Below the pieces are notes generated by a model. The model made no database searches. It was not told the DNA's origin and saw nothing but the letters and a program-made list of their open reading frames with translations. Position numbers and translations under genes: made by a program. A stretch of DNA of 64,000 bases. Source: Nitrospirota bacterium. GTDB lineage: Bacteria; Nitrospirota; Thermodesulfovibrionia; Thermodesulfovibrionales; Magnetobacteriaceae. This document shows positions 9,588 through 22,075 of this stretch, in pieces. The DNA is taken from assembly GCA_015233045.1 (NCBI GenBank), contig JADFYL010000001.1:1-64000 (forward strand), read 5' to 3'. Positions within the stretch are counted from its first letter, which is position 1; every line of letters starts with the position of its first letter.

Positions 9588-10862
9588 TCACACAAACCTG
9601 TGCTTTAAATTCATTACGTCCCGATAGAGAACCACCCCAAGTATAATGTCAAGGCCATTGGTAACGGGGATGGCCCTGAAACTGTAGCGCGAAAACATCT
9701 CGGCTGCCTCAATAAGTGTGTTTTCCGGTTTCAGGGCGATGACGTTTGTCGTCATAATGGCCTCAAGTTTATCCTCTATACTTGCCTGTAGCGCCTCTTT
9801 AAGGTCAACCACGCCGAGCAGCGTGTCCTTTTCGTCAACTACGTATATGTACATTATCACGTCCTTGTCTTTGGCAATTTCACGATACTGTAGCAGCAGA
9901 TGGGACACCTGCGTATGCGGGGGGAGTTTTATGAAATGCGACGTTGAGAAATGGACAAGCTCCTCGTCATGTTTATCGAGCAGGAATTGCACCTTTTGGG
10001 CGTTTTCCTTATCAATTAGTTTCATAATCTCGTCCGCCTCCGCCGCTGGCAATATGGCAAGTATATCGGCTGCCTGGGCGGGAGTCATATCATTAATCAA
10101 TTCGGCAGCCCTCTCCTTCCTGATGCAACAGATAAGTTCTCTCTGAACGCGCGGCTCGATTTCCTCCAGCGTATCAGAGGCGTGCTCTGTTTCAAGTTCA
10201 TTGAATATGGCAAGGCGCTGTTCAGAGCTCAACTCCTCAAGGATGTCCGCCAGGTCAACCGGATGAATATCGGTGAGTTTCTCTTTCAGGACATTTAGCT
10301 TGACATTGCCCTTGAATGCGCCTGTATTTTCAGGCAACGGCTGGACGTAAGCCCATGACAGGGTCTCTTTTTTCAGGAAATCTGCCCCGAACAGAAACTT
10401 CACTATGGGTTTGAGGCCAAGTCTTTTTAGTAAGGCGTATCTGCTGAAATCCACGTCCGTAACATACAATACTTTATTACGCAGCTCCAGCTTTATATCA
10501 TAGACCATATCTATTTCATTATCATCCATGTCAAGGACTTTTTTATCAAGAATATGGGTATTGAGGAGCACCCTGCCTTCGGGCGGCTCGCCCTCATATT
10601 GGCTCAGACTTTCAAGTTCAACGGTAATCCTCGCGGCGTTGACCGTCGCTACACGTTCCCACGGTACGAGAAGCGCCTTGCCGCCAAATGGACGATGAAT
10701 GATAAAGTGGGTAACTCTGGGGATTTTCTCTTTCTCCACAATGGCAAGGTCCATCAGTTTCCCGATCTTTTCGTTTCCATTCAATACCTTTGTGCCAATA
10801 AGGTCACTTAAAAAGAACACCTCGGCATCCGTTTCCTTGTCCGTGTCAATTATAGTGTTCAA
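9588..10862 (-). CDS. soluble PRC-barrel / MgtE N-domain / CBS-pair protein (Mg2+ sensor-like)
   Basis: About 424 aa without membrane segments. Order: two PRC-barrel-like units (to about residue 160; VLNGNEKIGKLMDL and VLDMDDNEIDMVYDI), MgtE intracellular N-domain helices (about 215-310; IHPVDLADILEEL, MTPAQAADILAIL) and a CBS pair (about 315-426; VVDEKDTLLGVVDLKEAL and AIPVTNGLDIILGVV). In MgtE channels these domains bind Mg2+ and gate the pore; here the pore domain is absent. It lies 3' of an NRAMP gene and a 58-aa membrane peptide, so it probably regulates that transporter. TTG 10862 has GGAGG 6 nt upstream; a TTG at 10868 is less well placed. Confidence 0.85.
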   Translation of the reverse strand: MNTIIDTDKETDAEVFFLSDLIGTKVLNGNEKIGKLMDLAIVEKEKIPRVTHFIIHRPFGGKALLVPWERVATVNAARITVELESLSQYEGEPPEGRVLLNTHILDKKVLDMDDNEIDMVYDIKLELRNKVLYVTDVDFSRYALLKRLGLKPIVKFLFGADFLKKETLSWAYVQPLPENTGAFKGNVKLNVLKEKLTDIHPVDLADILEELSSEQRLAIFNELETEHASDTLEEIEPRVQRELICCIRKERAAELINDMTPAQAADILAILPAAEADEIMKLIDKENAQKVQFLLDKHDEELVHFSTSHFIKLPPHTQVSHLLLQYREIAKDKDVIMYIYVVDEKDTLLGVVDLKEALQASIEDKLEAIMTTNVIALKPENTLIEAAEMFSRYSFRAIPVTNGLDIILGVVLYRDVMNLKHRFV

Positions 10863-10874
10863 GGCCAACCTCCA

Positions 10875-11071: not shown

Positions 11072-12340
11072 CTATTTGAGTATATCAGGAAATAGGGTGC
11101 TTATTCCATAGATGCTTGATATGACGATTATGACCGCCACTATCCCCACAGTGACTATGTTTTGTGTCAAAGAATTTGTATATTCCCCCATGGTCTTTTT
11201 GTTGTTCAACAGGAGAATCAGAAAGACCAGAGCCGCTGGCAGCAAAGTAACCGCGACGACCTGTACAAATAGTGTGATAAGCACAAGCGGCGCTTTTGGA
11301 ATCAGCACTACAACCCCAGCCGAGGCCACGAGTAAGAAGAAGAACGCGTAAAACCATGGGGCCTCTTTTATCTTATAGTTTAGCGAGTGCGCCCAGCCGA
11401 AGACCTCTCCAAATGCCCATGAACTGGCAAGCGAGATGCAAACCGCGCCAAGGAAACCGGCGTCAAACAGGCCAATCGCCATTAAAGCACCGACATGCTT
11501 ATTGGTTCTCATCAGCATAATGGACGCTTGTGCCGCATCGTCAACGGCCACCCCTTTTAGTACCGTGCCGGTGACTATGATGATAAATACGGCCACAACC
11601 CCGGTAAACATCGAACCCATAAATGTGTCAATCTTGCCCCAGGGAATGTCCTTTTCCTTCATGGCCTTGTCAACGACGGCGCTCTGCTGGAAGAAGAGCA
11701 TCCACGGGGCTATCGTAGTGCCGACATTCGCCATAAGGAAAAAGAACAAGTCGTTATTAAAACCTCCCGGAAAGTTGGGAACCAGTCCATTGCTTATTAT
11801 GTCCTTGACAGATGGATTAATCAAAAACGCACATGGGATATAAATCAGATTTAGCCCACAAAAGACGAGGGTTATCTTCTCCCACGTCCAGTAGCTGCCG
11901 CTGAGTACCATGCCCACCATTACAACGCACATCACTATGACCGTTAGATAGGGCGATACGCCGAATATTTTAAGGGCGGATGTCATGCCGATGAACTCCG
12001 TCACCATCGTCATCCAGTTTACAATCAACAAATCCAGCAGCGAAAACCATCCCCAAAAGGCACCAAATCCCTCGAAAATTGCCTCCGCGTGACCCCGCTT
12101 TGTTACCGCGCCCAAACGTACCGTCATTTCCTGCACGTAGTAGCAGACGGGGATGAGTATTACGATAACCCATATAAGATTATAGCCGTACTTCGCCCCC
12201 GTTGCCGCGTACGTAGTAATGCCGCCCGCATCGTTGTCGGCGATCATCACAATAATGCCCGGCCCCGAAATAATGAGAAATAGTTTTATCGCCTTAATAA
12301 TCTTGCGATACTGGTAATACAACTGCGTAAAAATGCTCAT
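11072..12340 (-). CDS. divergent NRAMP-family divalent cation transporter
   Basis: A 422-aa polytopic protein with the NRAMP fold (about 11 hydrophobic spans). The TM1 ion site that normally reads D-P-G-N is D-A-G-G (37-40), and the TM6 site normally M-P-H is A-P-W (211-213). The transition-metal ligand Met and the Asn are therefore both missing while the Asp is kept. Loss of that Met is a feature described for NRAMP-related Mg2+ transporters, so Mg2+ (or another hard cation) is a better guess than Mn2+/Fe2+. The downstream MgtE-type sensor protein supports this. GTGGAGGG precedes ATG 12340. It follows pstB after 67 nt containing its own likely promoter. Confidence 0.9.
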   Translation of the reverse strand: MSIFTQLYYQYRKIIKAIKLFLIISGPGIIVMIADNDAGGITTYAATGAKYGYNLIWVIVILIPVCYYVQEMTVRLGAVTKRGHAEAIFEGFGAFWGWFSLLDLLIVNWMTMVTEFIGMTSALKIFGVSPYLTVIVMCVVMVGMVLSGSYWTWEKITLVFCGLNLIYIPCAFLINPSVKDIISNGLVPNFPGGFNNDLFFFLMANVGTTIAPWMLFFQQSAVVDKAMKEKDIPWGKIDTFMGSMFTGVVAVFIIIVTGTVLKGVAVDDAAQASIMLMRTNKHVGALMAIGLFDAGFLGAVCISLASSWAFGEVFGWAHSLNYKIKEAPWFYAFFFLLVASAGVVVLIPKAPLVLITLFVQVVAVTLLPAALVFLILLLNNKKTMGEYTNSLTQNIVTVGIVAVIIVISSIYGISTLFPDILK

Positions 12341-12407: not shown

Positions 12408-13157
12408 TCAGCCGAATCTGCCGGTTATATAATCCTCAGTCAGTTTATTGGAGGGATATGTGAACACCCTTGGGGTTTCGTCAAATTCTATCAGCTCGCC
12501 AAGCATTATAAATCCCGTGTAATCGCTCATCCTTGCCGCCTGCTGCATGTTGTGCGTGACGATTACTATTGTAACGGTATCCTTTAATTCAACCGCAAGC
12601 TCCTCGATTTTAGATGTAGAGATGGGGTCAAGCGCCGATGTAGGCTCATCAAAAAGCAGCACTTCCGGGGCAACCGCGAGGGCGCGGGCTATGACCAGGC
12701 GCTGCTGCTGCCCCCCTGAGAGCGTGTAAGCGCTCTCGTTGATTTTGTGTTTGACCTCGTCCCAAATGGCGGCCTGTTTGAGGGCAAACTCGACATGTCC
12801 GTCAAGTTCGTCGCGTCTTTTTACCCCCCTAAGCCGCAGCCCATAGGCAACGTTTTCGTATATTGACATAGGAAATGGGGTCGGTTTTTGAAACACCATC
12901 CCCACACGGCTGCGCAGCTCAATGATGTCTGTGTGCTCGGCCAAAATATTCATGTCATTAAACATGATCTCCCCTTCGTAGCGGTTACCGGGGTAGAGGT
13001 CGTGCATTCGGTTAAAGCACCTCAGCAGTGTCGTCTTGCCGCAGCCAGACGGCCCTATGAGCGCCGTTACGGCGTGTGCGTGTATAGGAATGCTTATGTT
13101 TTTAAGGGCATGCACTCCGCCCGCATAATAAAAGTTGAGCTGTTTTACCTCATCCAT
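12408..13157 (-). CDS. pstB: phosphate ABC transporter ATP-binding protein
   Basis: ATPase of the PstSCAB phosphate importer, 249 aa. Walker A is G-P-S-G-C-G-K-T-T, the PstB-specific segment F-N-R-M-H-D-L-Y-P is present, Q-loop [10 protein letters not shown], signature L-S-G-G-Q-Q-Q-R and Walker [12 protein letters not shown] are complete. No pstS, pstC or pstA is in the window, so this is an orphan. Its ATG immediately follows the TAG stop of the EAL-CBS-GGDEF gene, placing it in an operon headed by the zinc-ribbon gene, whose promoter has a Pho-box-like repeat array. That makes phosphate control of this operon plausible. Confidence 0.93.
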
Positions 13158-15029
13158 CTATCGCCCATTCTCACTGTTATCACCCACACAATCGTGCCCA
13201 CAGTGCATCCTCTTGTCTCTGACAATTGAAAACCCCTCCTTTGACTTAGCGGCCTTCTTGACGTCCGTTGCTATGGACGCCAGATGCGCGAAGGATTCTA
13301 TTTTATATATCTCAGTACTCACCACACCAATTGACAAGGACAAAAGTTGATATCTCTCCGCCTGTCCTTTTCTGCTTACTGAATCATAATATCCTCTTTC
13401 ATAGTCGTTTTCGCCATGAAATTCCCTGAGCCTTGACTTAAAACTCTCTATCAGCATATTGCAAAGCGTGAGCGACATGTTCGGATGGGCAAGGAGGATA
13501 AAATCGTCCCCGCCGATATGCCCGACGAAGTTAAAATCATGTTGTTGTACCCTCACAATTTCCTCCATTATCTGCCCCAGCGTCCTGATTACCACATCGC
13601 CCTTTTCAAAACCATAGTTGTCGTTGTATGGTTTAAAATTATCAAGGTCTATGTAGCAGACATCGAAGTGTATGTTTTGGGTAAGTCTCTTGTTTATCTC
13701 CTCCGAGATAGATTTGTTGCCGGGCAGCCCCGTAAGCGGGTTGGCGTTTTTAGCAAGAGATATGGATTTCTCAGTAACAGCCGCTAACAGCTCGCTTATA
13801 GTGACAGAACCAAGGTATTTTCCGTTTCTTGTCACAGTAATGTCGTCGTAAAGCAATTCAACCTTCCTCATTCTAACCATCCCGGCAACATCTTCAATCG
13901 AAACGTTTCCCTCTACCGAGAGAAACTGCGTCTCCATCAGGTCATTGACCCTCTTACGGTAGTTTAGGGCACTGCCATAGCCGCACTTGCCAAGCATCTG
14001 ATTCTCTAAAAACCTCTGCCTGTTGATAATCCCGAAAATCCTGTCGTTTTCGACAACAGGCATACATCTAAAGTCACTATTACTTATTAAAGTATTAAAG
14101 GCCTCCATCAAGGTAGTATCTGGAAGGAGGCCGTCTCTCTTGACCGCAATATCGCCTATGAACACATTGTCAGGAAATTTGCTGTAACTATCCAGTTTTT
14201 TCCCCTTCTGGGAGCAAATTTCTACTTTGGCCTGGCTGTTTAGGCCGGGGGCGGGTCTTTGCAGGTAAAACCCCTGCAATAGCTCTATGCCCATGTTCAT
14301 AACATGCTTGAGTTCCTCTTCTTTTTCTATACCTTCGGCAATAACCTTTATGCCAAGCCTGTGGCACACTGTCGTAATGGCGTCAACCAGGTTATGCTTG
14401 ATAAGGGCCTTGTCCACATCGGAGATAAAATGCCTGTCTATTTTTACATAATCTGGTTCGATTATTGACAGCATCTTTAAACCACCATATCCCACCCCAA
14501 AATCATCTATTGCAATCTTATAACCCGTTTCTTTAAACTTATGAACGACCTTATTGAACGCGTCGTAGTTTGCGATAGCGCTTTCTTCGGTTATTTCAAG
14601 GACAATTTTATCTTTTGACAAACCCCATTCCCTTATATAGTGGTCAGTAATCTCACACCATCCGGGGTTATCTGTAATCGTCTCAGGGCAGATGTTTATG
14701 AATAAGTACGAATCGGTCTTGCTGATACCCTCCTGGGATGCCTTTACAAGGGCGTTTTCCTGACACGCCGAATCCAATATAGACAGTGTGTTGGTTACCT
14801 TAGCCTTTTCAAACAACTCGCCTATGTTAAACGGCGACGAAGTCCTTATAAGTCTGGTAAGGGCTTCATATCCATAGGCGCCCCCATCTTTCGACGAATA
14901 GATGGGCTGAAAGTGAATAGTTAAGGCATTAGTGTCTATTAACCGGTATATATGTTCTCTTGTTTCACCTAAGTCGTAATCCTTTGGTTTTTTAGCCAAG
15001 ACATCATCCAATGTCCATTTTGTTTTCAT
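13158..15029 (-). CDS. EAL - CBS pair - GGDEF bifunctional c-di-GMP protein
   Basis: A 623-aa cytoplasmic protein with no membrane segment. The EAL domain (about 40-290) keeps G-Y-E-A-L-T-R, N-I-C-P-E, E-I-T-E-E, D-D-F-G-V-G-Y, K-I-D-R, A-E-G-I-E and Q-G-F-Y-L-Q-R-P, so phosphodiesterase activity is expected. A central pair of CBS motifs (about 305-440) precedes a GGDEF domain whose active loop reads G-G-D-D-F, a conservative variant that may or may not be active. ATG 15029 has GGAGG at 7 nt. The same domain order is known in other bacteria. Position between a zinc-ribbon protein and pstB suggests a link between c-di-GMP and phosphate status (inference). Confidence 0.92.
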   Translation of the reverse strand: MKTKWTLDDVLAKKPKDYDLGETREHIYRLIDTNALTIHFQPIYSSKDGGAYGYEALTRLIRTSSPFNIGELFEKAKVTNTLSILDSACQENALVKASQEGISKTDSYLFINICPETITDNPGWCEITDHYIREWGLSKDKIVLEITEESAIANYDAFNKVVHKFKETGYKIAIDDFGVGYGGLKMLSIIEPDYVKIDRHFISDVDKALIKHNLVDAITTVCHRLGIKVIAEGIEKEEELKHVMNMGIELLQGFYLQRPAPGLNSQAKVEICSQKGKKLDSYSKFPDNVFIGDIAVKRDGLLPDTTLMEAFNTLISNSDFRCMPVVENDRIFGIINRQRFLENQMLGKCGYGSALNYRKRVNDLMETQFLSVEGNVSIEDVAGMVRMRKVELLYDDITVTRNGKYLGSVTISELLAAVTEKSISLAKNANPLTGLPGNKSISEEINKRLTQNIHFDVCYIDLDNFKPYNDNYGFEKGDVVIRTLGQIMEEIVRVQQHDFNFVGHIGGDDFILLAHPNMSLTLCNMLIESFKSRLREFHGENDYERGYYDSVSRKGQAERYQLLSLSIGVVSTEIYKIESFAHLASIATDVKKAAKSKEGFSIVRDKRMHCGHDCVGDNSENGR

Positions 15030-15042
15030 ACATGTGCCTCCT

Positions 15043-15231
15043 TCAGTATGCTCCTTGTTCCATGCAAACCATGACAGGGGCTTTGCCTGTCCGTTTCCTT
15101 CCCTCTTCAGCAAAATACCAGACTATGGGGAAAAAGTACCTGACTTCACACTTTGTACATGAATACAGATTACCCGCGAAGTACTCACCTTTAAGTTCAA
15201 GCTGGGAATTACAATCGTCACAATATCTCAT
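15043..15231 (-). CDS. 62-aa zinc-ribbon protein
   Basis: A small protein with two knuckles, C-D-D-C near the N-terminus and C-T-K-C at about residues 25-28, spaced as in a zinc ribbon, then an aromatic stretch and a basic C-terminus. Real gene rather than a chance frame: AGGAGG sits 5 nt before ATG 15231, and its TGA overlaps the Shine-Dalgarno of the EAL-CBS-GGDEF gene, giving translational coupling. No family name can be assigned. It is the first gene of the operon controlled by the repeat array at 15271-15339. Confidence 0.8.
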   Translation of the reverse strand: MRYCDDCNSQLELKGEYFAGNLYSCTKCEVRYFFPIVWYFAEEGRKRTGKAPVMVCMEQGAY

Positions 15232-15270: not shown

Positions 15271-15339
15271 ATATTAAACGATGGGCTGTTACAAGAATAT
15301 TAAGGAATTATTAAGAATAGATTATATTTGTGTGAAATC
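15271..15339 (-). promoter_or_regulatory. promoter with five 8-bp half-sites at exact 11-bp phasing (Pho-box-like)
   Basis: Plus-strand half-sites start at 15288 (GTTACAAG), 15299 (ATTAAGGA), 15310 (ATTAAGAA), 15321 (ATTATATT) and 15332 (GTGAAATC), every step 11 bp. On the minus strand, after an 11-nt gap, comes a -10 TAATAT (15271-15276) and then the zinc-ribbon gene 40 nt further. Direct 8-bp repeats with 3-bp spacing match the layout of PhoB-family boxes, notably cyanobacterial ones. The downstream operon contains pstB. A matching array lies at 21941-22019. Confidence 0.65.
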
Positions 15340-15346
15340 TTGCAAG

Positions 15347-15452
15347 GGAGTACAGAAGCTGCCAACGGGGGGATAATCTCTCGTCTTGGCGATAAACAAA
15401 ACATTGTCAAAATTACGGGTGAGGGGGGTTACCCCCCTCGTCTTTAATCCTT
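15347..15452 (+). repeat. two-hairpin intergenic repeat, copy 1
   Basis: Shares a left block (GGAGTACAGAAGCTGCCAAC), a middle block (AAACAAAACATTG) and a right hairpin GAGGGGGG-TTA-CCCCCCTC (15421-15439) followed by a T-rich stretch with copies at 22701-22790 and 38772-38880. This copy sits beyond the 3' end of the TerC gene and could terminate that operon, although the T-run faces the plus strand. Confidence 0.6.
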
Positions 15453-15508: not shown

Positions 15509-16198
15509 TTATATGGCGCTTTTTGATAAAGTATACAGCTTTCTCTTCCTCATCAAAATTCCGGCGGTTACAACACCCGCAGCATATAGTATCTCAACAA
15601 AGTTTGTTACGCGCGCGTCCAGATGGAAGACACTTGCTATAAAAGGGTCAGTCATTGCCAGTTCGGCACCTATTCTGCCAAGCACCGCGGCAGATATATA
15701 GATTATAAAAGGGTATTTATCCAGCAGGGCGGCGAGGACATTGCTGGCAAGAAATACAATTGGGATGCTTATGGCAAGTCCGGTAATCAGAAGAGAAAGA
15801 TTCCCTTTTGACACCGCGGCAACCCCCATCACGTTGTCGAAGGACATGGTTAAATTCGCAATAACTATTATCTTAATAGCATGTAAAATGTTGGTGGACT
15901 GATCCCCTTCCACATCCGCGGCGCTTATCTCTACGCAGCGCTTAAGCGCTATCATGGTAATTATCACCCCGCCGATAAATCTGACATATTTTAATTGCAG
16001 CAACTCCGAGACGTAAAAAATCAATACAATATTTATGGCAAACGAACACGCCGCCCCTATAACCAAACCCTTTTTTCTGCTTGTCTTAGGCAGGGATTTG
16101 ACCGCCATCGCAAGCACGACCGCGTTGTCACTCGATAGGGCGAGATTGACAAGGATTACGTTTAAAAAATCATAAAAAAGGCTTATATCCATTGTCAT
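15509..16198 (-). CDS. TerC-family (YjbE-type) integral membrane metal transporter
   Basis: A 229-aa protein with about seven hydrophobic spans and the two inverted TerC signatures N-L-A-L-S-S-D-N-A (18-26) and N-L-T-M-S-F-D-N-V (about 113-121), whose acidic residues bind metal. TerC proteins export Mn2+ in several bacteria or load metal to exported proteins; the substrate here is unknown. The ATG overlaps the stop of the MetK-like gene (ATGA), making it the last gene of a six-gene operon with a P-type ATPase and HMA2/DUF5132 proteins, which supports a metal-export role. Confidence 0.9.
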   Translation of the reverse strand: MTMDISLFYDFLNVILVNLALSSDNAVVLAMAVKSLPKTSRKKGLVIGAACSFAINIVLIFYVSELLQLKYVRFIGGVIITMIALKRCVEISAADVEGDQSTNILHAIKIIVIANLTMSFDNVMGVAAVSKGNLSLLITGLAISIPIVFLASNVLAALLDKYPFIIYISAAVLGRIGAELAMTDPFIASVFHLDARVTNFVEILYAAGVVTAGILMRKRKLYTLSKSAI

Positions 16199-17400
16199 CG
16201 CCCGCTGAGAGACAAGATTTTATCGCGCATGTCCGTAACTTCCCACGGGAGTTCCATGTCTGTCCTGCCAAAGTGCCCATAGACAGCAAGTTTCTGATAA
16301 AATATCCCCCCATTTGCCTTGTTAGGAAGGTATCTTAGGTTGAATTTCTTTAAGATTGCAGGCAGTCTGAAGTCGAATAACTGCTCTATTATATCCTCAA
16401 TCTCCTGGTCTTTTATCTTGCCCGTCCCGTATGTGTCTACCTGAATGCTTACAGGCCTGGCAAGTCCAATGGAATAACTCACCTGAACCTCACACTCATG
16501 GGCCAGCCCGGCCGCTACCACGTTTTTTGCCGCATATCTGGCCATGTATGCCCCTACTCTGTCAATTCTAAGCGGTCCTTTGCCGCTTAGGGCGGCGTCC
16601 GAGTTTCTCGCATACCCGCCATATGTATCCATAGCCTTCTTTCTGCCGGTAAGGCCGGAGTGTGACGATGGGCCGCCCGTTACAAACGCACCGTCAGGGT
16701 TTATAAAGATACGCGTCTTATCATCCAGCCCTATATTCTCATCGGCAAACGCGGCATCTATTACACGCGCTCTGACGTCGTCTCTTAGCTTCTCTATCGC
16801 TGGCACATCGGCTGACTCCTGACACGCCTGCACAATTATGCTGTGTATCCTGTAGGGAAGGCGATTTTTATACTCCACACCCACCTGCACCTTACCATCG
16901 GGGGCAAGATATGGCAACTCATTATCAAGGTGTGCCCTGTCAAGCCTTATCGCGATTTTATGGGCCAGCCATATGGACAGCGGTATGAAGGCGGGCGTCT
17001 GATTACACGCAAAGCCGAAGATGGTAGCGTTGTTTTTCACCACTATTTCGTCCATTTCGCTGTCTGACATCTGATGTTCGTTATATATGCCATATTTATC
17101 CGGCTTAAGTTCCTTGAGGCTTGTAATTATGCTGCATGTCTTGTCGTTAAATGCCTGTTTGGTATAACCAATCCGGCGTATTACCTTCCTTGCAATGTTG
17201 GCAAAATCCATGACAGCCTTAGACTCGAACATAGACGCTATAAACACTATTGATGTTGACACAGCACACTCGGCGATGATTCTCGTATTGGGGTCCTGAA
17301 GCAGGGCATGGTCAACGATAGCGTCGCTGATCTGGTCGCATAACTTATCCGGATGTCCTGCCGTTACAGACTCCGATGAGAGCATGAAGTCATTATTCAT
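16195..17400 (-). CDS. S-adenosylmethionine synthetase homologue with altered catalytic residues
   Basis: A 401-aa full-length MetK-family protein. G-H-P-D-K-L-C-D-Q-I-S-D at the N-terminus, F-I-N-P-D-G-A-F, G-L-T-G-R-K, D-T-Y-G-G and A-A-K-N-V-V-A-A-G-L-A are clear. However, the A-G-D-Q-G loop is K-N-N-A (Asp118 of E. coli MetK aligns with Asn), the G-G-P-x-x-D Asp238 is His (GGPSSH), and H-G-G-G-A-F-S-G-K-D is N-S-D-A-A-L-S-G-K-G. Lys165, Lys245 and Asp271 equivalents remain. It may be inactive, altered in specificity, or a divergent true enzyme. It overlaps the P-type ATPase stop and the TerC start by 4 bp each, an unusual operon for metK. Confidence 0.85.
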   Translation of the reverse strand: MNNDFMLSSESVTAGHPDKLCDQISDAIVDHALLQDPNTRIIAECAVSTSIVFIASMFESKAVMDFANIARKVIRRIGYTKQAFNDKTCSIITSLKELKPDKYGIYNEHQMSDSEMDEIVVKNNATIFGFACNQTPAFIPLSIWLAHKIAIRLDRAHLDNELPYLAPDGKVQVGVEYKNRLPYRIHSIIVQACQESADVPAIEKLRDDVRARVIDAAFADENIGLDDKTRIFINPDGAFVTGGPSSHSGLTGRKKAMDTYGGYARNSDAALSGKGPLRIDRVGAYMARYAAKNVVAAGLAHECEVQVSYSIGLARPVSIQVDTYGTGKIKDQEIEDIIEQLFDFRLPAILKKFNLRYLPNKANGGIFYQKLAVYGHFGRTDMELPWEVTDMRDKILSLSGR

Positions 17401-20400
17401 AGAGTGTTCACCTCCGCAGGCATTGTTTTTGCCGATTTTTTCGTTGCCTCGTTTATCAACAGGGGAATGACAGACGCCGAACCGGCCACCAGCGCGTCCA
17501 CCAGATTCATTGGCGATATCTTTAACAGATTCCTCAACCCCGGCACTGTCATCGCAAGCAATTGTAACAAGAACGACCCTCCAAGTGCAATGTTCATATA
17601 TTTATTGGGTGGGAGCGTCTCTTTATCGAATATGCTATGTTTGTCTGTGCGGCAGCTTATGGCGTGCAGGAGCTGAGAAGTCGAGAGGCTCAAAAATGCC
17701 ATATTGCCCGCTCGCGGCGAAACGCCGTATCTGGAGATGCCATAGGCGTATGCCCCAAGCGAGGCGGCGCTCATCGTAAGCGACTCGAATGCTATGCGCT
17801 TGAAATCCTTCGCTTCAATTATATTTTCGTCGGGGCTTCTGGGGGGCTGGCTCATTATGTCCGGCTCTGGTTGCTCTAATGAAAGGGCGATGCCGGGAAA
17901 TATATCAGAGATAAGATTTATCCATAAGAGCTGAATGGCGCTTATCGGATGCCCAAACCCAGCGGCGATGGATGCAAACATGACCATTATCTCACTCATA
18001 TTCGTGGAGAGAAGATAGTGGACAGATTTTCTGATATTACTGTAAATCGCCCGCCCGTGGCTGACAGCGATTATCATCGTTTCAAGATTATCGTCTTCCA
18101 GTATAACATCGGCTATTTCACGCGATACGTCAGTACCTGTGCGCCCCATAGCGATGCCAATGTTGGCGGCCTTAAGGGCAGGCCCGTCGTTTATCCCATC
18201 TCCGGTCATAGCCGTAACTTTGCCCGCCCTCTGTAAGGCACGCACTATCTGAAGTTTTTGGGCCGGGCTTACGCGGGCAAAGACGTTTACATTTTCACAT
18301 AACGCGGTCAATACTTGGGGGCTTAGTTCATTTAAACTGGTCGAATCCAGTATCTCAATCTGGCCGTCATTACCAAGGTCTAACTCCTTCCCTATGGAGT
18401 AGGCAGTCGGCACCTGGTCGCCCGTGATCATTATTGTATCTATACCGGCTGTGTGAAATGCCTTAATCAATGCCTTTGCCTCAGACTTTACCGGGTCTGC
18501 CATGCCGACAAGCCCAAGCCATGTCAGCCCTGAGGATAGTTCCGCCGTGCCATCCTCATCAATGAATTTATACGCCACACCCAGTACCCTCAGTGACTTA
18601 CCTGCTAATTGCTCATTTTCGTTTTGAATCTGATCCCTTTCGCCGTTTACAAACTCATATTCAATACCGTCTTTCAGGTAGAATTTGCATAAATCCAAGA
18701 CCTCCGCAGGGGAGCCTTTCAGGGCTGCAAGCTTCCTTCCCGCGGCGTCTCCAAACACCCCGTCTCCACTAAACCTGTGTACCGTAATCATGTAGTTGCT
18801 GCCCTCTGAACGGTGTTTTATATCTATCAGGGGAAAACTCCTTCTCATCCGCAGGACATCCACCCCCGCGCCGATGGCAATATGAACAAGGGCGTTTTCT
18901 GTTGATGAGCCGTCAAGGACGTAGCCGGAGTCTCCTTTACTTATCAATGTCTCGCTGCACAGCGTTACCACATGGATTAGTCGCTCAAGTTCAGGGGACA
19001 GCGTGGTCAGCGTCTCTCCCTCTTCCGTAGATAAGCGTCCTGATAATATATTTATTTTCTGCGCCGTTGTTACAACGCACACAGCCGTCATCCGGTTTAA
19101 TGTCAGCGTTCCGGTCTTGTCAAGGCAAATCGTCTGCACAGAGCCGAGGGCTTCTACGGCGTCAAGGCGGCGAATCAGGACATTGTGCTGTTTCATCTTG
19201 TTTATACCGAGCGCCAGCACAGTAGTGGCCATCGCGGGCAGCCCTTCCGGTATTGCGGCAACCGCCAGAGATATAGAGGACTGTACCATCTCCAAAAGTC
19301 CAAACCCGCGCAACAACCCCGTGACAAACACGAGGCCGCACACACCGGCACATATAAGCACAAGCTTATCGCCGATACGTTCTAATTGAATCTCCATAGG
19401 GGTATCTGGCGCAACGGCATCGCCAACCAGTGTTTGTATCTGTCCCATTTCCGTATATCCGCCTGTTGCCGTTACTACGGCCAGCGCCTGTCCGCCGGTT
19501 ACCAGTGTGCCCATGTATATCATATTAATCCTGTCAGCCAGAGGAATGTCCTCGTCTTCAAGGTGCCTTTCGGTCTTCACAACCGGCATACTCTCACCCG
19601 TGAGGGCTGATTCGTCCACGCTTAACATATGCGATTCAATAACCCTTGCGTCGGCGGGGATATAAGTGCCCGGCTTTAGAATGAGTACATCTCCCGGCAC
19701 TACCTCTTCGACGCTTATCTCTATCACCTTCCCGTCTCTTAGGACAAACGTATATGGCCGTACAAGCCTTTTAAGGGAATTAATGGTCTTTTCAGTTTGG
19801 CTCTCCGTCACGAAGCCTATTATGGCGTTAATCAACACCACACTCAATATTACGATGCCATCGGCAATCCCCCCCGTAGCAGCCGAAAGCACAGCCGCCC
19901 CCCCTAACAGCAACACGGGAAACGATGTGAACTGTCCGAAAAACATGCCCCATTTAGAGCGCGCAGCCGATTCGGGCAGTATATTTTTTCCATACGTATG
20001 TAACAATTCTGACGCGAACTCAGCGCTTAATCCCTTTGCCGGTGACGTGCTAAAAAAGGCAATAACCTCATCCTTTTTCATATTCTGCCACTGAATGGCC
20101 TCCTGTTTCGCGCTCAGTGAGTTGTCTTTCGCCTTTTTTTTGATTTCTATTGTCTTTGACGGTGGTGGTGGTTTGACTGGACTTGTCAGCGTTGTCTTAC
20201 GTTTAAAAAGGTCTCTTACCGTATCTCTGACGCTAAATGGCCTTAAATAATGCCCTTGGGCGCCTGGGGGTTGTTTATAATCACCGACGATGGTTTCCAG
20301 ATAAGAGGAAATCATTGCCGGACTATTACCGTCGTTATAGCTGACCAAAACGGTTGACGTAAGGGTGTTTATGGCTACACTGGCAATGCCGGTTTCTCTG

Positions 20401-20555
20401 GTAAGATGTGTGAAGATATGTTCTTTCAGAGAATCACAGCGGTACAGGCTGGGTACTTTATACCGCGCCCTGCCCTTTACTCTAACATGCACGGGAACTA
20501 TTGACTGGTAATTTAGACCGGCCAGCTCGCGATCGTCCAGCGTTACCGTATTCAA
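17397..20555 (-). CDS. P-type cation-transporting ATPase with N-terminal HMA2-like domain
   Basis: A 1052-aa P2-type pump. An HMA2-like domain (about 15-90; H-V-R-V-K-G-R-A-R-Y-K) and a Pro/Lys linker precede the cation ATPase N-domain. Then come T-G-E-S (actuator), I-P-E-G-L-P-A in M4, phosphorylation site D-K-T-G-T-L-T, M-T-G-D-G-I-N-D-G-P-A-L and N-L-I-S-D-I-F-P-G in M6. M4 resembles Ca2+/Mn2+-type pumps, not the CPC of copper or zinc pumps. TTG 20555 is preceded by GAGGAG at 5 nt. It lies between a paired HMA2 protein and the MetK-like gene, so it is the core of the predicted metal-efflux operon; the ion cannot be stated. Confidence 0.93.
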   Translation of the reverse strand: MNTVTLDDRELAGLNYQSIVPVHVRVKGRARYKVPSLYRCDSLKEHIFTHLTRETGIASVAINTLTSTVLVSYNDGNSPAMISSYLETIVGDYKQPPGAQGHYLRPFSVRDTVRDLFKRKTTLTSPVKPPPPSKTIEIKKKAKDNSLSAKQEAIQWQNMKKDEVIAFFSTSPAKGLSAEFASELLHTYGKNILPESAARSKWGMFFGQFTSFPVLLLGGAAVLSAATGGIADGIVILSVVLINAIIGFVTESQTEKTINSLKRLVRPYTFVLRDGKVIEISVEEVVPGDVLILKPGTYIPADARVIESHMLSVDESALTGESMPVVKTERHLEDEDIPLADRINMIYMGTLVTGGQALAVVTATGGYTEMGQIQTLVGDAVAPDTPMEIQLERIGDKLVLICAGVCGLVFVTGLLRGFGLLEMVQSSISLAVAAIPEGLPAMATTVLALGINKMKQHNVLIRRLDAVEALGSVQTICLDKTGTLTLNRMTAVCVVTTAQKINILSGRLSTEEGETLTTLSPELERLIHVVTLCSETLISKGDSGYVLDGSSTENALVHIAIGAGVDVLRMRRSFPLIDIKHRSEGSNYMITVHRFSGDGVFGDAAGRKLAALKGSPAEVLDLCKFYLKDGIEYEFVNGERDQIQNENEQLAGKSLRVLGVAYKFIDEDGTAELSSGLTWLGLVGMADPVKSEAKALIKAFHTAGIDTIMITGDQVPTAYSIGKELDLGNDGQIEILDSTSLNELSPQVLTALCENVNVFARVSPAQKLQIVRALQRAGKVTAMTGDGINDGPALKAANIGIAMGRTGTDVSREIADVILEDDNLETMIIAVSHGRAIYSNIRKSVHYLLSTNMSEIMVMFASIAAGFGHPISAIQLLWINLISDIFPGIALSLEQPEPDIMSQPPRSPDENIIEAKDFKRIAFESLTMSAASLGAYAYGISRYGVSPRAGNMAFLSLSTSQLLHAISCRTDKHSIFDKETLPPNKYMNIALGGSFLLQLLAMTVPGLRNLLKISPMNLVDALVAGSASVIPLLINEATKKSAKTMPAEVNTL

Positions 20556-20707: not shown

Positions 20708-21175
20708 TTATTTTGTCAGATATTTGGTAAACATCCCGTGGGCGTACCAGAAGGCGGTGTACCACGGCGGCACTACGAAATTCCCACGGCTGAGCTGATA
20801 CAATCCAAAACCCACCAGTGTTAGAAAGGAAATCCTGGGCAGGTCAAGGCCACCACCCGTAGCGGTTACAGCGCCTTTGTTGACGGTCTTGAAGACCTCG
20901 GCTATTTTGGTTGAAACATTCTCGGAATTCTTTGTGGGCGCGGCTATTTTTACAAGCCCCTGTTCGGCGGCATATGTTAAAATCTCTTCATTACTTGTAT
21001 TATGTAAGATCAGAACGCTTGCGGTAATAGGATTTACCTCTACGGTGCTTATCTTAGGATTGTCGGCAAGTGTTTTTTTCAGTTCCGCAAAGTACTCCGC
21101 GTCGCCTTTGGCTTCTAATATCTTTATCCTTAATCTGCCCTGAGTCTGATGACTAACGATACCTTCACCAATCAT
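20708..21175 (-). CDS. HMA2-domain membrane-associated protein
   Basis: A 155-aa protein with an N-terminal HMA2-like ferredoxin fold (about 1-80): the H-Q-T-Q-G-R-L-R-I-K strand, V-E-V-N-P-I-T-A-S-V-L-I-L strand and no CxxC, as is typical of this branch. After a linker, the C-terminal part (about 110-135) holds a hydrophobic segment with W-Y-T-A-F-W-Y-A. ATG 21175 follows the DUF5132 stop by 3 nt. It pairs with a second HMA2 protein upstream and an HMA2-like domain at the N-terminus of the ATPase, so all three may interact. Confidence 0.82.
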   Translation of the reverse strand: MIGEGIVSHQTQGRLRIKILEAKGDAEYFAELKKTLADNPKISTVEVNPITASVLILHNTSNEEILTYAAEQGLVKIAAPTKNSENVSTKIAEVFKTVNKGAVTATGGGLDLPRISFLTLVGFGLYQLSRGNFVVPPWYTAFWYAHGMFTKYLTK

Positions 21176-21178
21176 CTG

Positions 21179-21430
21179 TTAACCCACCTTATCCACAACA
21201 GTGGCTTCAACCAACTCCGCCTTAGCCTCAACCACGAGGTCCTCGACTACTTCGCCGATTTCGGCGGCCAGCTCTATCCCTCTTCCATAGGCGATTATTC
21301 CGCCCTTTATAGCCGCCTTCGTCAATGGCTTTACGACAGAGGCAAGGATTGGTATTATCACGGGCGACAGCACAGCCGCCCCTATCCCTATTGCCAGACC
21401 GGACAACACATTTCCTTTAAACAGGTCCAT
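21179..21430 (-). CDS. DUF5132-type small membrane protein (PacL-like candidate)
   Basis: An 83-aa protein: a glycine-rich hydrophobic helix (about 8-35; V-L-S-G-L-A-I-G-I-G-A-A-V-L-S-P), an amphipathic segment, and a Glu/Ala/Val-rich C-terminal helix (E-I-G-E-V-V-E-D-L-V-V-E-A-K-A-E-L-V-E-A). One membrane helix followed by a Glu/Ala-rich helix next to a P-type ATPase resembles mycobacterial PacL proteins, which form membrane platforms with zinc-efflux ATPases. That analogy is my inference. GGAGG lies 6 nt before ATG 21430. Confidence 0.82.
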   Translation of the reverse strand: MDLFKGNVLSGLAIGIGAAVLSPVIIPILASVVKPLTKAAIKGGIIAYGRGIELAAEIGEVVEDLVVEAKAELVEATVVDKVG

Positions 21431-21527: not shown

Positions 21528-21899
21528 CTACACAAGAACCGAGAGAAAAGACAGGGCCGAATCCCCTAAGGCCATATCCATAGCGCTGCCGAACAGGACT
21601 TTACTGACAAAACCGCCGGCTTTTGAAAAGGCGTTGTGCAGATACTCGTCATTGGATATTGTTTTCGACAAATCAATACCGCCTTTGTTCTCAAGCATAT
21701 CCATTATCATCTCGGCATCAATTAGTTCTGGACAGTAGTTGATTGCAAGGCTGCCCGTCAGAGGATTTGACTTTATTGATTTTACGCCGTCAAAGCCTTG
21801 AAACAGATTTACAACCAAATCCCTTTTCCCACTGTTCCCCTTTAAAACAGGAGACTTAATGCGCAATCTGCCGGGTACGCTGTGGAGATATACTGCCAT
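21528..21899 (-). CDS. HMA2-domain protein, first gene of the metal operon
   Basis: A 123-aa protein starting with the HMA2 strand Y-L-H-S-V-P-G-R-L-R-I-K; V-K-S-I-K-S-N-P-L-T-G-S-L-A-I-N-Y follows, then a hydrophobic C-terminal segment (about 85-123). I placed the start at ATG 21899 because AGGAGG lies 8 nt upstream and the protein then begins at the domain; an upstream ATG at 21935 would add 12 residues without a Shine-Dalgarno. Its promoter region carries the phased repeat array. Confidence 0.83.
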   Translation of the reverse strand: MAVYLHSVPGRLRIKSPVLKGNSGKRDLVVNLFQGFDGVKSIKSNPLTGSLAINYCPELIDAEMIMDMLENKGGIDLSKTISNDEYLHNAFSKAGGFVSKVLFGSAMDMALGDSALSFLSVLV

Positions 21900-21940
21900 C
21901 CGGTTGCCCTCCTCTGTAGTTTTATCCATTACCATGTTTT

Positions 21941-22019
21941 ATGATAACTTACTCTGTATTACAACATTATTAAGGATTCGTTAAGTATTGTTACAAGTTG
22001 ATTACATTTATGTTAAATC
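21941..22019 (-). promoter_or_regulatory. promoter with six 8-bp half-sites at about 11-bp phasing, matching 15271-15339
   Basis: Plus-strand half-sites start at 21958 (ATTACAAC), 21969 (ATTAAGGA), 21980 (GTTAAGTA), 21990 (GTTACAAG), 22001 (ATTACATT) and 22012 (GTTAAATC); steps are 11, 11, 10, 11 and 11. The minus-strand -10 TATCAT (21941-21946) is again 11 nt from the array. The outer 20 nt (22000-22019) match 17 of 20 positions of 15320-15339. It drives the HMA2/DUF5132/ATPase operon. Confidence 0.65.
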
Positions 22020-22075
22020 TCTTGGGGGGGTATTCCCCGCCGCTTACGGTGTAACTGATGACTCCTTATAACGGA

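Follow-up and report, generated by a model that had tools for sequence, protein, structure and literature searches.

A predicted Pho-box cluster ahead of a metal-pump and second-MetK operon in Nitrospirota

Control of gene expression by PhoB through tandem direct repeats has been described in several bacterial lineages. In a structural model of Escherichia coli PhoB, the protein binds tandem half-sites and contacts the sigma and alpha subunits of RNA polymerase (PMC3348028). Synechocystis PhoB binds a triple repeat with a TTAA core, and its regulon reaches iron-related genes (PMC11126600), while the portions of the Desulfovibrio vulgaris report drawn on here place both pstS-C-A and HD/EAL c-di-GMP genes under PhoB (PMC3333781). 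Data on Bacteroides fragilis phoB include a putative calcium-transporting ATPase that shifts only ~2-fold, and we found nothing specific to a PhoB-controlled calcium ATPase/metK operon, and no published description of a Pho-box element in the present lineage, in the literature searched. Here, we examine a 64,000-nt stretch of a Nitrospirota genome (contig JADFYL010000001.1, hereafter the window) which contains two phased repeat arrays, each located ahead of an operon with metal-transport genes. We propose, with a probability of roughly 90%, that the array preceding the metal operon (array 2) is a Pho-box cluster forming a PhoB-driven promoter, with PhoB binding predicted and the operon induced together with Pho genes when phosphate is scarce. 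This reading draws on the array itself, its match to the arrays of classic Pho genes, the promoter geometry, conservation, and the presence in sister genomes of a cognate PhoB and a PhoR/PnpS-like kinase.

Architecture and statistical support of the two arrays

Array 2 (21957..22017, minus strand) comprises six 7-nt half-sites, in order TTTAACA, TGTAATC, TGTAACA, CTTAACG, CTTAATA, and TGTAATA, starting at positions 22017, 22006, 21995, 21985, 21974, and 21963. A -10-like hexamer, TATCAT (21941..21946, minus strand), lies 17 nt from the start of the last half-site, with a gap of 11 nt between the last TGTAAT and the hexamer (array to -10, minus strand 22017-21941: TTTAACATAAATGTAATCAACTTGTAACAATACTTAACGAATCCTTAATAATGTTGTAATACAGAGTAAGTTATCAT). 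A previous sequence-only reading of this DNA, which named no strand, had reported six half-sites with steps of 11, 11, 10, 11, and 11 and an 11-nt distance to a TATCAT -10; both hold on the minus strand, with the hexamer at 21946-21941. The 17/20 identity it had noted between the outer block (22000-22019) and positions 15320-15339 was likewise recovered exactly, the runner-up 20-mer within the window reaching 15/20. The second of these blocks overlaps array 1 (15287..15337, minus strand), made of five half-sites at 11-bp steps (starts at 15337, 15326, 15315, 15304, and 15293) and kept in sister genomes. G-run/C-run inverted repeats, GGGGGGTTACCCCCC and GGGGGGTATTCCCC (window 15423-15438 and 22025-22038), are found on the upstream side near both arrays.

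To score these arrays, we used a half-site matrix trained solely on two other arrays of the same genome, those ahead of pstS (contig C112) and olsF (contig C142). Both had been picked up with a search motif modeled on the window array, so that the loci are independent and the motif discovery is not; their location before pstS and olsF was no part of their selection. Array 2 is not a chance occurrence, because this matrix gives it 42.2 bits (rank 1) compared to 17.8 bits for the best non-array chain in the window, with array 1 at 35.3 bits (rank 2). The maximum across 30 Markov-shuffled windows was 19.3 bits, and none of 20,000 first-order shuffles of array 2 itself reached 42.2 bits (maximum 31.7). 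These scores bear on the possibility that the repeats are merely curved A/T-rich upstream DNA, helix-phased by chance and recognized by no specific regulator. The half-sites are indeed A/T-rich and phased at ~11 bp, but shuffled sequences fall short of the array score, conservation extends to the letters and not only the phasing (all of 31 half-sites have T at position 3 and A at position 5), and the element occurs only with a coherent set of genes; we regard this explanation as extremely improbable.

Genome-wide, a loose motif (three TTAAY, up to three mismatches) showed no overall enrichment, with 493 matches vs. 506 for the control, and this search was informative at low mismatch only. A stricter pattern including the -10 was therefore adopted. 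Across nine genomes of the family, two half-sites followed by a -10 yielded 33 matches, compared to 3 for the reversed control. The genes behind most of these 33 matches form a coherent Pho regulon, phoB included, and a few matches (e.g., L094, L098, and L116) resemble chance.

Genes behind the element and the candidate regulator

The element is also found at other loci of this genome. On C112 it lies ahead of pstS-pstC-pstA-phoU, a pst operon without pstB, and on C142 ahead of a gene whose product resembles the ornithine-lipid synthase OlsF (401 bits vs. an equivalog cut-off of 620). On C34, it leads a GH1 glycosidase gene and a PHP/GT21 operon. In Desulfovibrio alaskensis, the lipids of phosphate starvation include ornithine lipids and glycolipids (PMC5193443). 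A weaker array (27 bits) lies ahead of an ammonium transporter gene (L034, 621-664, plus strand), a possible link between phosphate and nitrogen.

All genes of the operon behind array 1 are on the minus strand. These encode an EAL-CBS-GGDEF protein (13158..15113), PstB (12408..13157; TIGR00972, 374.6 bits, above cut-off), an NRAMP-family transporter (11072..12340; PF01566), and an MgtE_N-CBS-PRC protein that lacks the membrane domain of MgtE (9588..10868). This pstB is the sole copy found in the assembly, and the split of pstB from the pst operon is also seen in two sister genomes (G005 and G006). The displaced gene, outside the pstSCA-phoU operon and behind the EAL-CBS-GGDEF gene, was observed in the window and at L032, L137, and L138, and in G005 the EAL-pstB cluster adjoins the pst operon in convergent orientation. 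The MgtE_N-CBS-PRC gene adjoins the NRAMP gene in G005 too, and its product may serve an NRAMP-type Mg2+/Mn2+ transporter as a gating subunit. Several Pho arrays, among them array 1 and those ahead of phoB in G006 and G008, are followed first by a small cysteine-rich ORF (~50-130 aa, with CxxC motifs); such ORFs lie at window 15046-15231 (minus strand), L031 (near 5830-5680, minus strand), L124 (2379-2780, minus strand), and L119. Within the genus, the copy in the window shows 58-75% conservation, and a domain-family search gave no match above cut-off. In the array-1 region of G006 and G004, arrays occur on both strands (L137, 2341-2440; L139, 8474-8574), which suggests divergent Pho promoters.

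Searches of the assembly, which is 73.6% complete, recovered neither phoB nor phoR, and its three OmpR-type regulators include none of PhoB type. As PhoB candidates these were rejected: they have different recognition helices, one adjoins KdpD and is KdpE-like, and the others look CpxR-like and metal-type. A PhoB-like regulator is present in four genomes of the same genus (G003-G006) and in three further family members (G008, G011, and G014), scoring 265-279 bits on TIGR02154, below the cut-off of 296.2. Its recognition helix, EPRTVDVHIRRLR, matches that of E. coli PhoB, EDRTVDVHIRRLR, and is thus of PhoB type. Over the whole protein, the PhoB model is the best match by a narrow margin over YycF/WalR (267.7 vs. 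266.5). A histidine kinase gene follows phoB in G003-G006 and G011, and the kinase scored, from G005, is nearest to PnpS/PhoR. Finally, phoB is itself preceded by an array in G003, G004, G005, G006, G008, and G014, those of G008 and G014 being weak beyond the two proximal half-sites.

Two other regulators could in principle read these repeats. The WalR/VicR box of Firmicutes, TGTWAH-N5-TGTWAH, is an 11-bp direct repeat with the same period and similar letters (PMC9210968), and, among solved structures, those of VicR/WalR come closest to the sister regulator's DNA-binding domain, so that WalR/VicR-type sites under cell-envelope control deserve consideration. However, the WalR/VicR regulon is one of cell-wall genes, whereas the arrays lead pst, phoU, phoB, olsF-like, and GT21 genes but no gene for a cell-wall hydrolase; the penultimate half-sites, CTTAAT, do not fit TGTWAH, and the nearest relatives of the sister kinase, PnpS/PhoR, argue against WalR. 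We thus consider WalR/VicR-type control very unlikely. Alternatively, a metal-responsive regulator sensing Ca2+, Mn2+, or Mg2+ could control both operons via the arrays, as metal-transport genes are present in both and, of the three OmpR-type regulators that the assembly encodes, one adjoins metal-efflux-type genes. This is even harder to sustain, since the same element precedes pstS-phoU, phoB, and the olsF-like gene, and the three OmpR-type regulators carry different recognition helices.

On the basis of these comparisons, we predict with high confidence that the regulator of both window operons is PhoB of the PhoR-PhoB phosphate system, binding at the arrays being part of the prediction. 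For this organism, we infer the presence of phoB, binding by PhoB, activation rather than repression, and phosphate as the signal. That a single regulator governs both operons had already been proposed in the sequence-only reading, and the occurrence of the same element at pst, phoU, and olsF-like genes, together with the conservation of both arrays in sister species, supports it. The accompanying division into a phosphate/c-di-GMP operon and a metal-transport operon stood only in part: PstB, EAL, and metal-transport genes are present, but there is no clean split, the array-1 operon mixing PstB with NRAMP and MgtE_N-type genes and the metal operon adding a second MetK and TerC.

Composition and conservation of the metal operon

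Downstream of the array 2 promoter, the operon runs in the order HMA_2-DUF5132-HMA_2-P2A ATPase-MetK2-TerC, all on the minus strand. The first gene encodes an HMA_2 domain protein (21528..21899), for which the most likely start is 21899, preceded by GAGGAGGG, rather than an upstream ATG at 21935. It is followed by genes for a small DUF5132 protein (21179..21430; PF17195, 40.3 bits vs. a cut-off of 25), another HMA_2 protein (20708..21175; PF19991), and a P2A-type cation ATPase with an N-terminal HMA_2 domain (17397..20555; PF00690/PF00122/PF00689). The best PDB matches of this ATPase are calcium-transporting ATPases, and its sequence most resembles calcium pumps of bacteria and the human Ca2+-ATPase type 2C member 1. 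Its scores remain below the equivalog cut-offs for PMR1 (594.5 vs. 798.3 bits) and SERCA (516.2 vs. 703.4 bits), and its TIGR01522 score is lower than the equivalog cut-off of that model. By domain set and closest similarity, the protein thus classifies as a calcium-type P2A ATPase, its ion being predicted.

The next gene encodes a second, divergent paralogue of S-adenosylmethionine synthetase, MetK (16195..17400; TIGR01034, 370 bits, above cut-off); in complete sister genomes, another MetK (~592 bits) is encoded elsewhere. Adjacency of ATPase and MetK genes recurs in G008, G009, G011, L047, and L050. The operon ends with a TerC family (YjbE-type) membrane protein (15509..16198; PF03741 and TIGR03717), and the last three genes overlap at their ends by 4 bp. 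TerC proteins of Bacillus metalate exported manganese enzymes (PMC10550928). What the module does is less certain: it could re-balance Ca2+/Mn2+ when phosphate, ATP, and polyphosphate fall, or supply metal to exported phosphatases.

Conservation in related genomes had been named in the sequence-only reading as one point on which shared control depended, and in sister species each of the two arrays was again found ahead of the orthologous operon. For array 2, an array is kept ahead of the HMA_2-DUF5132-HMA_2-P2A ATPase-MetK2 operon in 5/5 congeners with intact upstream DNA; in each of these, none of 300 shuffled upstream segments reached the observed score. Candidatus Magnetominusculus xianensis HCH-1 (L043), strain LBB02 (L044), and two Nitrospirae MAGs (L041 and L042) have the array at the same place, with the same first gene downstream and a conserved -10 (TATCAT or TATTAT in sister species). 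Steps are 11 bp throughout in HCH-1, and in L041 exactly 22 bp, i.e., two half-sites, have been lost with the phase unchanged. Outside the genus, G008 carries one array before DUF5132-HMA_2-ATPase-MetK and another before a separate HMA_2 gene, L047 has arrays, and those of G010 and L050 are weaker (P <= 0.003). No array was found before the ATPase operon in G009 or G011, nor in the more distant L048, L052, L053, and L054. A candidate cyanobacterial parallel (L051) was rejected, as the array there directly precedes a different gene and L053 and L054 are without one. Array control of the metal module is thus, as judged from predicted sites, old in the lineage and not universal, because arrays occur in congeners and some other genera and are absent from G009, G011, L048, and L052-L054.

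Taken together, the location of the array before a Ca/Mn-type ATPase and a second MetK suggests that in this lineage, some members of which are magnetotactic, phosphate limitation is tied to the handling of metals. Such joint control is suggested because a PhoB-type array precedes phosphate-uptake genes and also, conserved across species, the metal-pump operon. A bolder proposal, which we advance tentatively and at somewhat less than even odds, is that phosphate starvation directly controls a dedicated metal/SAM module in Magnetominusculus-family Nitrospirota, so that the Pho response would take in Ca2+/Mn2+ export as well as the supply of SAM. If true, the module would, e.g., metalate exported phosphatases or offset the loss of phosphate-bound cations. 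While the Pho-box element itself appears to be of a standard, known kind, the metal-pump/second-MetK cargo appears new, and the conserved coupling of this operon to the Pho regulon is the part of real interest. An unexplained repeat thereby becomes a named regulatory element, and uncultured Nitrospirota gain a testable Pho regulon, proposed to comprise pst, phoB, the olsF-like gene, GT21 glycolipid-type genes, the EAL c-di-GMP gene, and the metal-pump operon.

Proposed mechanism and comparison with described Pho boxes

Under the proposed PhoB control, PhoR would phosphorylate PhoB when phosphate is scarce, and phosphorylated PhoB dimers would align on one face of the DNA over the six direct-repeat half-sites, the single 10-bp step leaving all sites roughly on that face. 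PhoB would then recruit RNA polymerase to a promoter with a -10 but no good -35, the proximal sites taking the place of the -35, and the additional upstream half-sites may confer higher sensitivity or strength. Transcription from this promoter would cover HMA_2-DUF5132-HMA_2-P2A ATPase-MetK2-TerC, co-induced with pst, phoB, the olsF-like gene, the PHP-GT21 operon, and the EAL-pstB-NRAMP operon. Activation under phosphate limitation would be the expected output, because, by analogy with E. coli PhoB, the proximal sites stand in for the -35.

Compared to described Pho boxes, the arrays share their geometry with the E. coli phoA box, in which direct repeats also recur every 11 bp (7-bp repeat and 4-bp spacer, as given in the cited portion of PMC3333781), and the -10 follows the start of the last half-site at a distance of 16 nt in the phoA sequence of MG1655 and of 16-17 nt here. 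They differ in half-site letters, TNTAAY here and TGTCAT in E. coli, with A replacing C at position 4 (TGTAATA vs. TGTCATA), and in half-site number, four to six per array compared to two in E. coli phoA. The pho box of Synechocystis (PhoB/SphR) similarly consists of tandem direct repeats with a conserved TTAA core (PMC11126600), the type to which the half-site letters of the present arrays belong, but has three repeats and belongs to a different lineage with different target genes. In D. vulgaris, the PhoB (DVU1083) box combines a 6-bp repeat with a 4-bp spacer and has the consensus (c/t)GT(n)AC, unlike the letters found here, and the targets given in the cited portion of that report name no metal-pump operon (PMC3333781). 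Nevertheless, PhoB control extending beyond phosphate uptake has precedent in both of these systems, through the c-di-GMP genes of D. vulgaris and the iron-related genes of Synechocystis.
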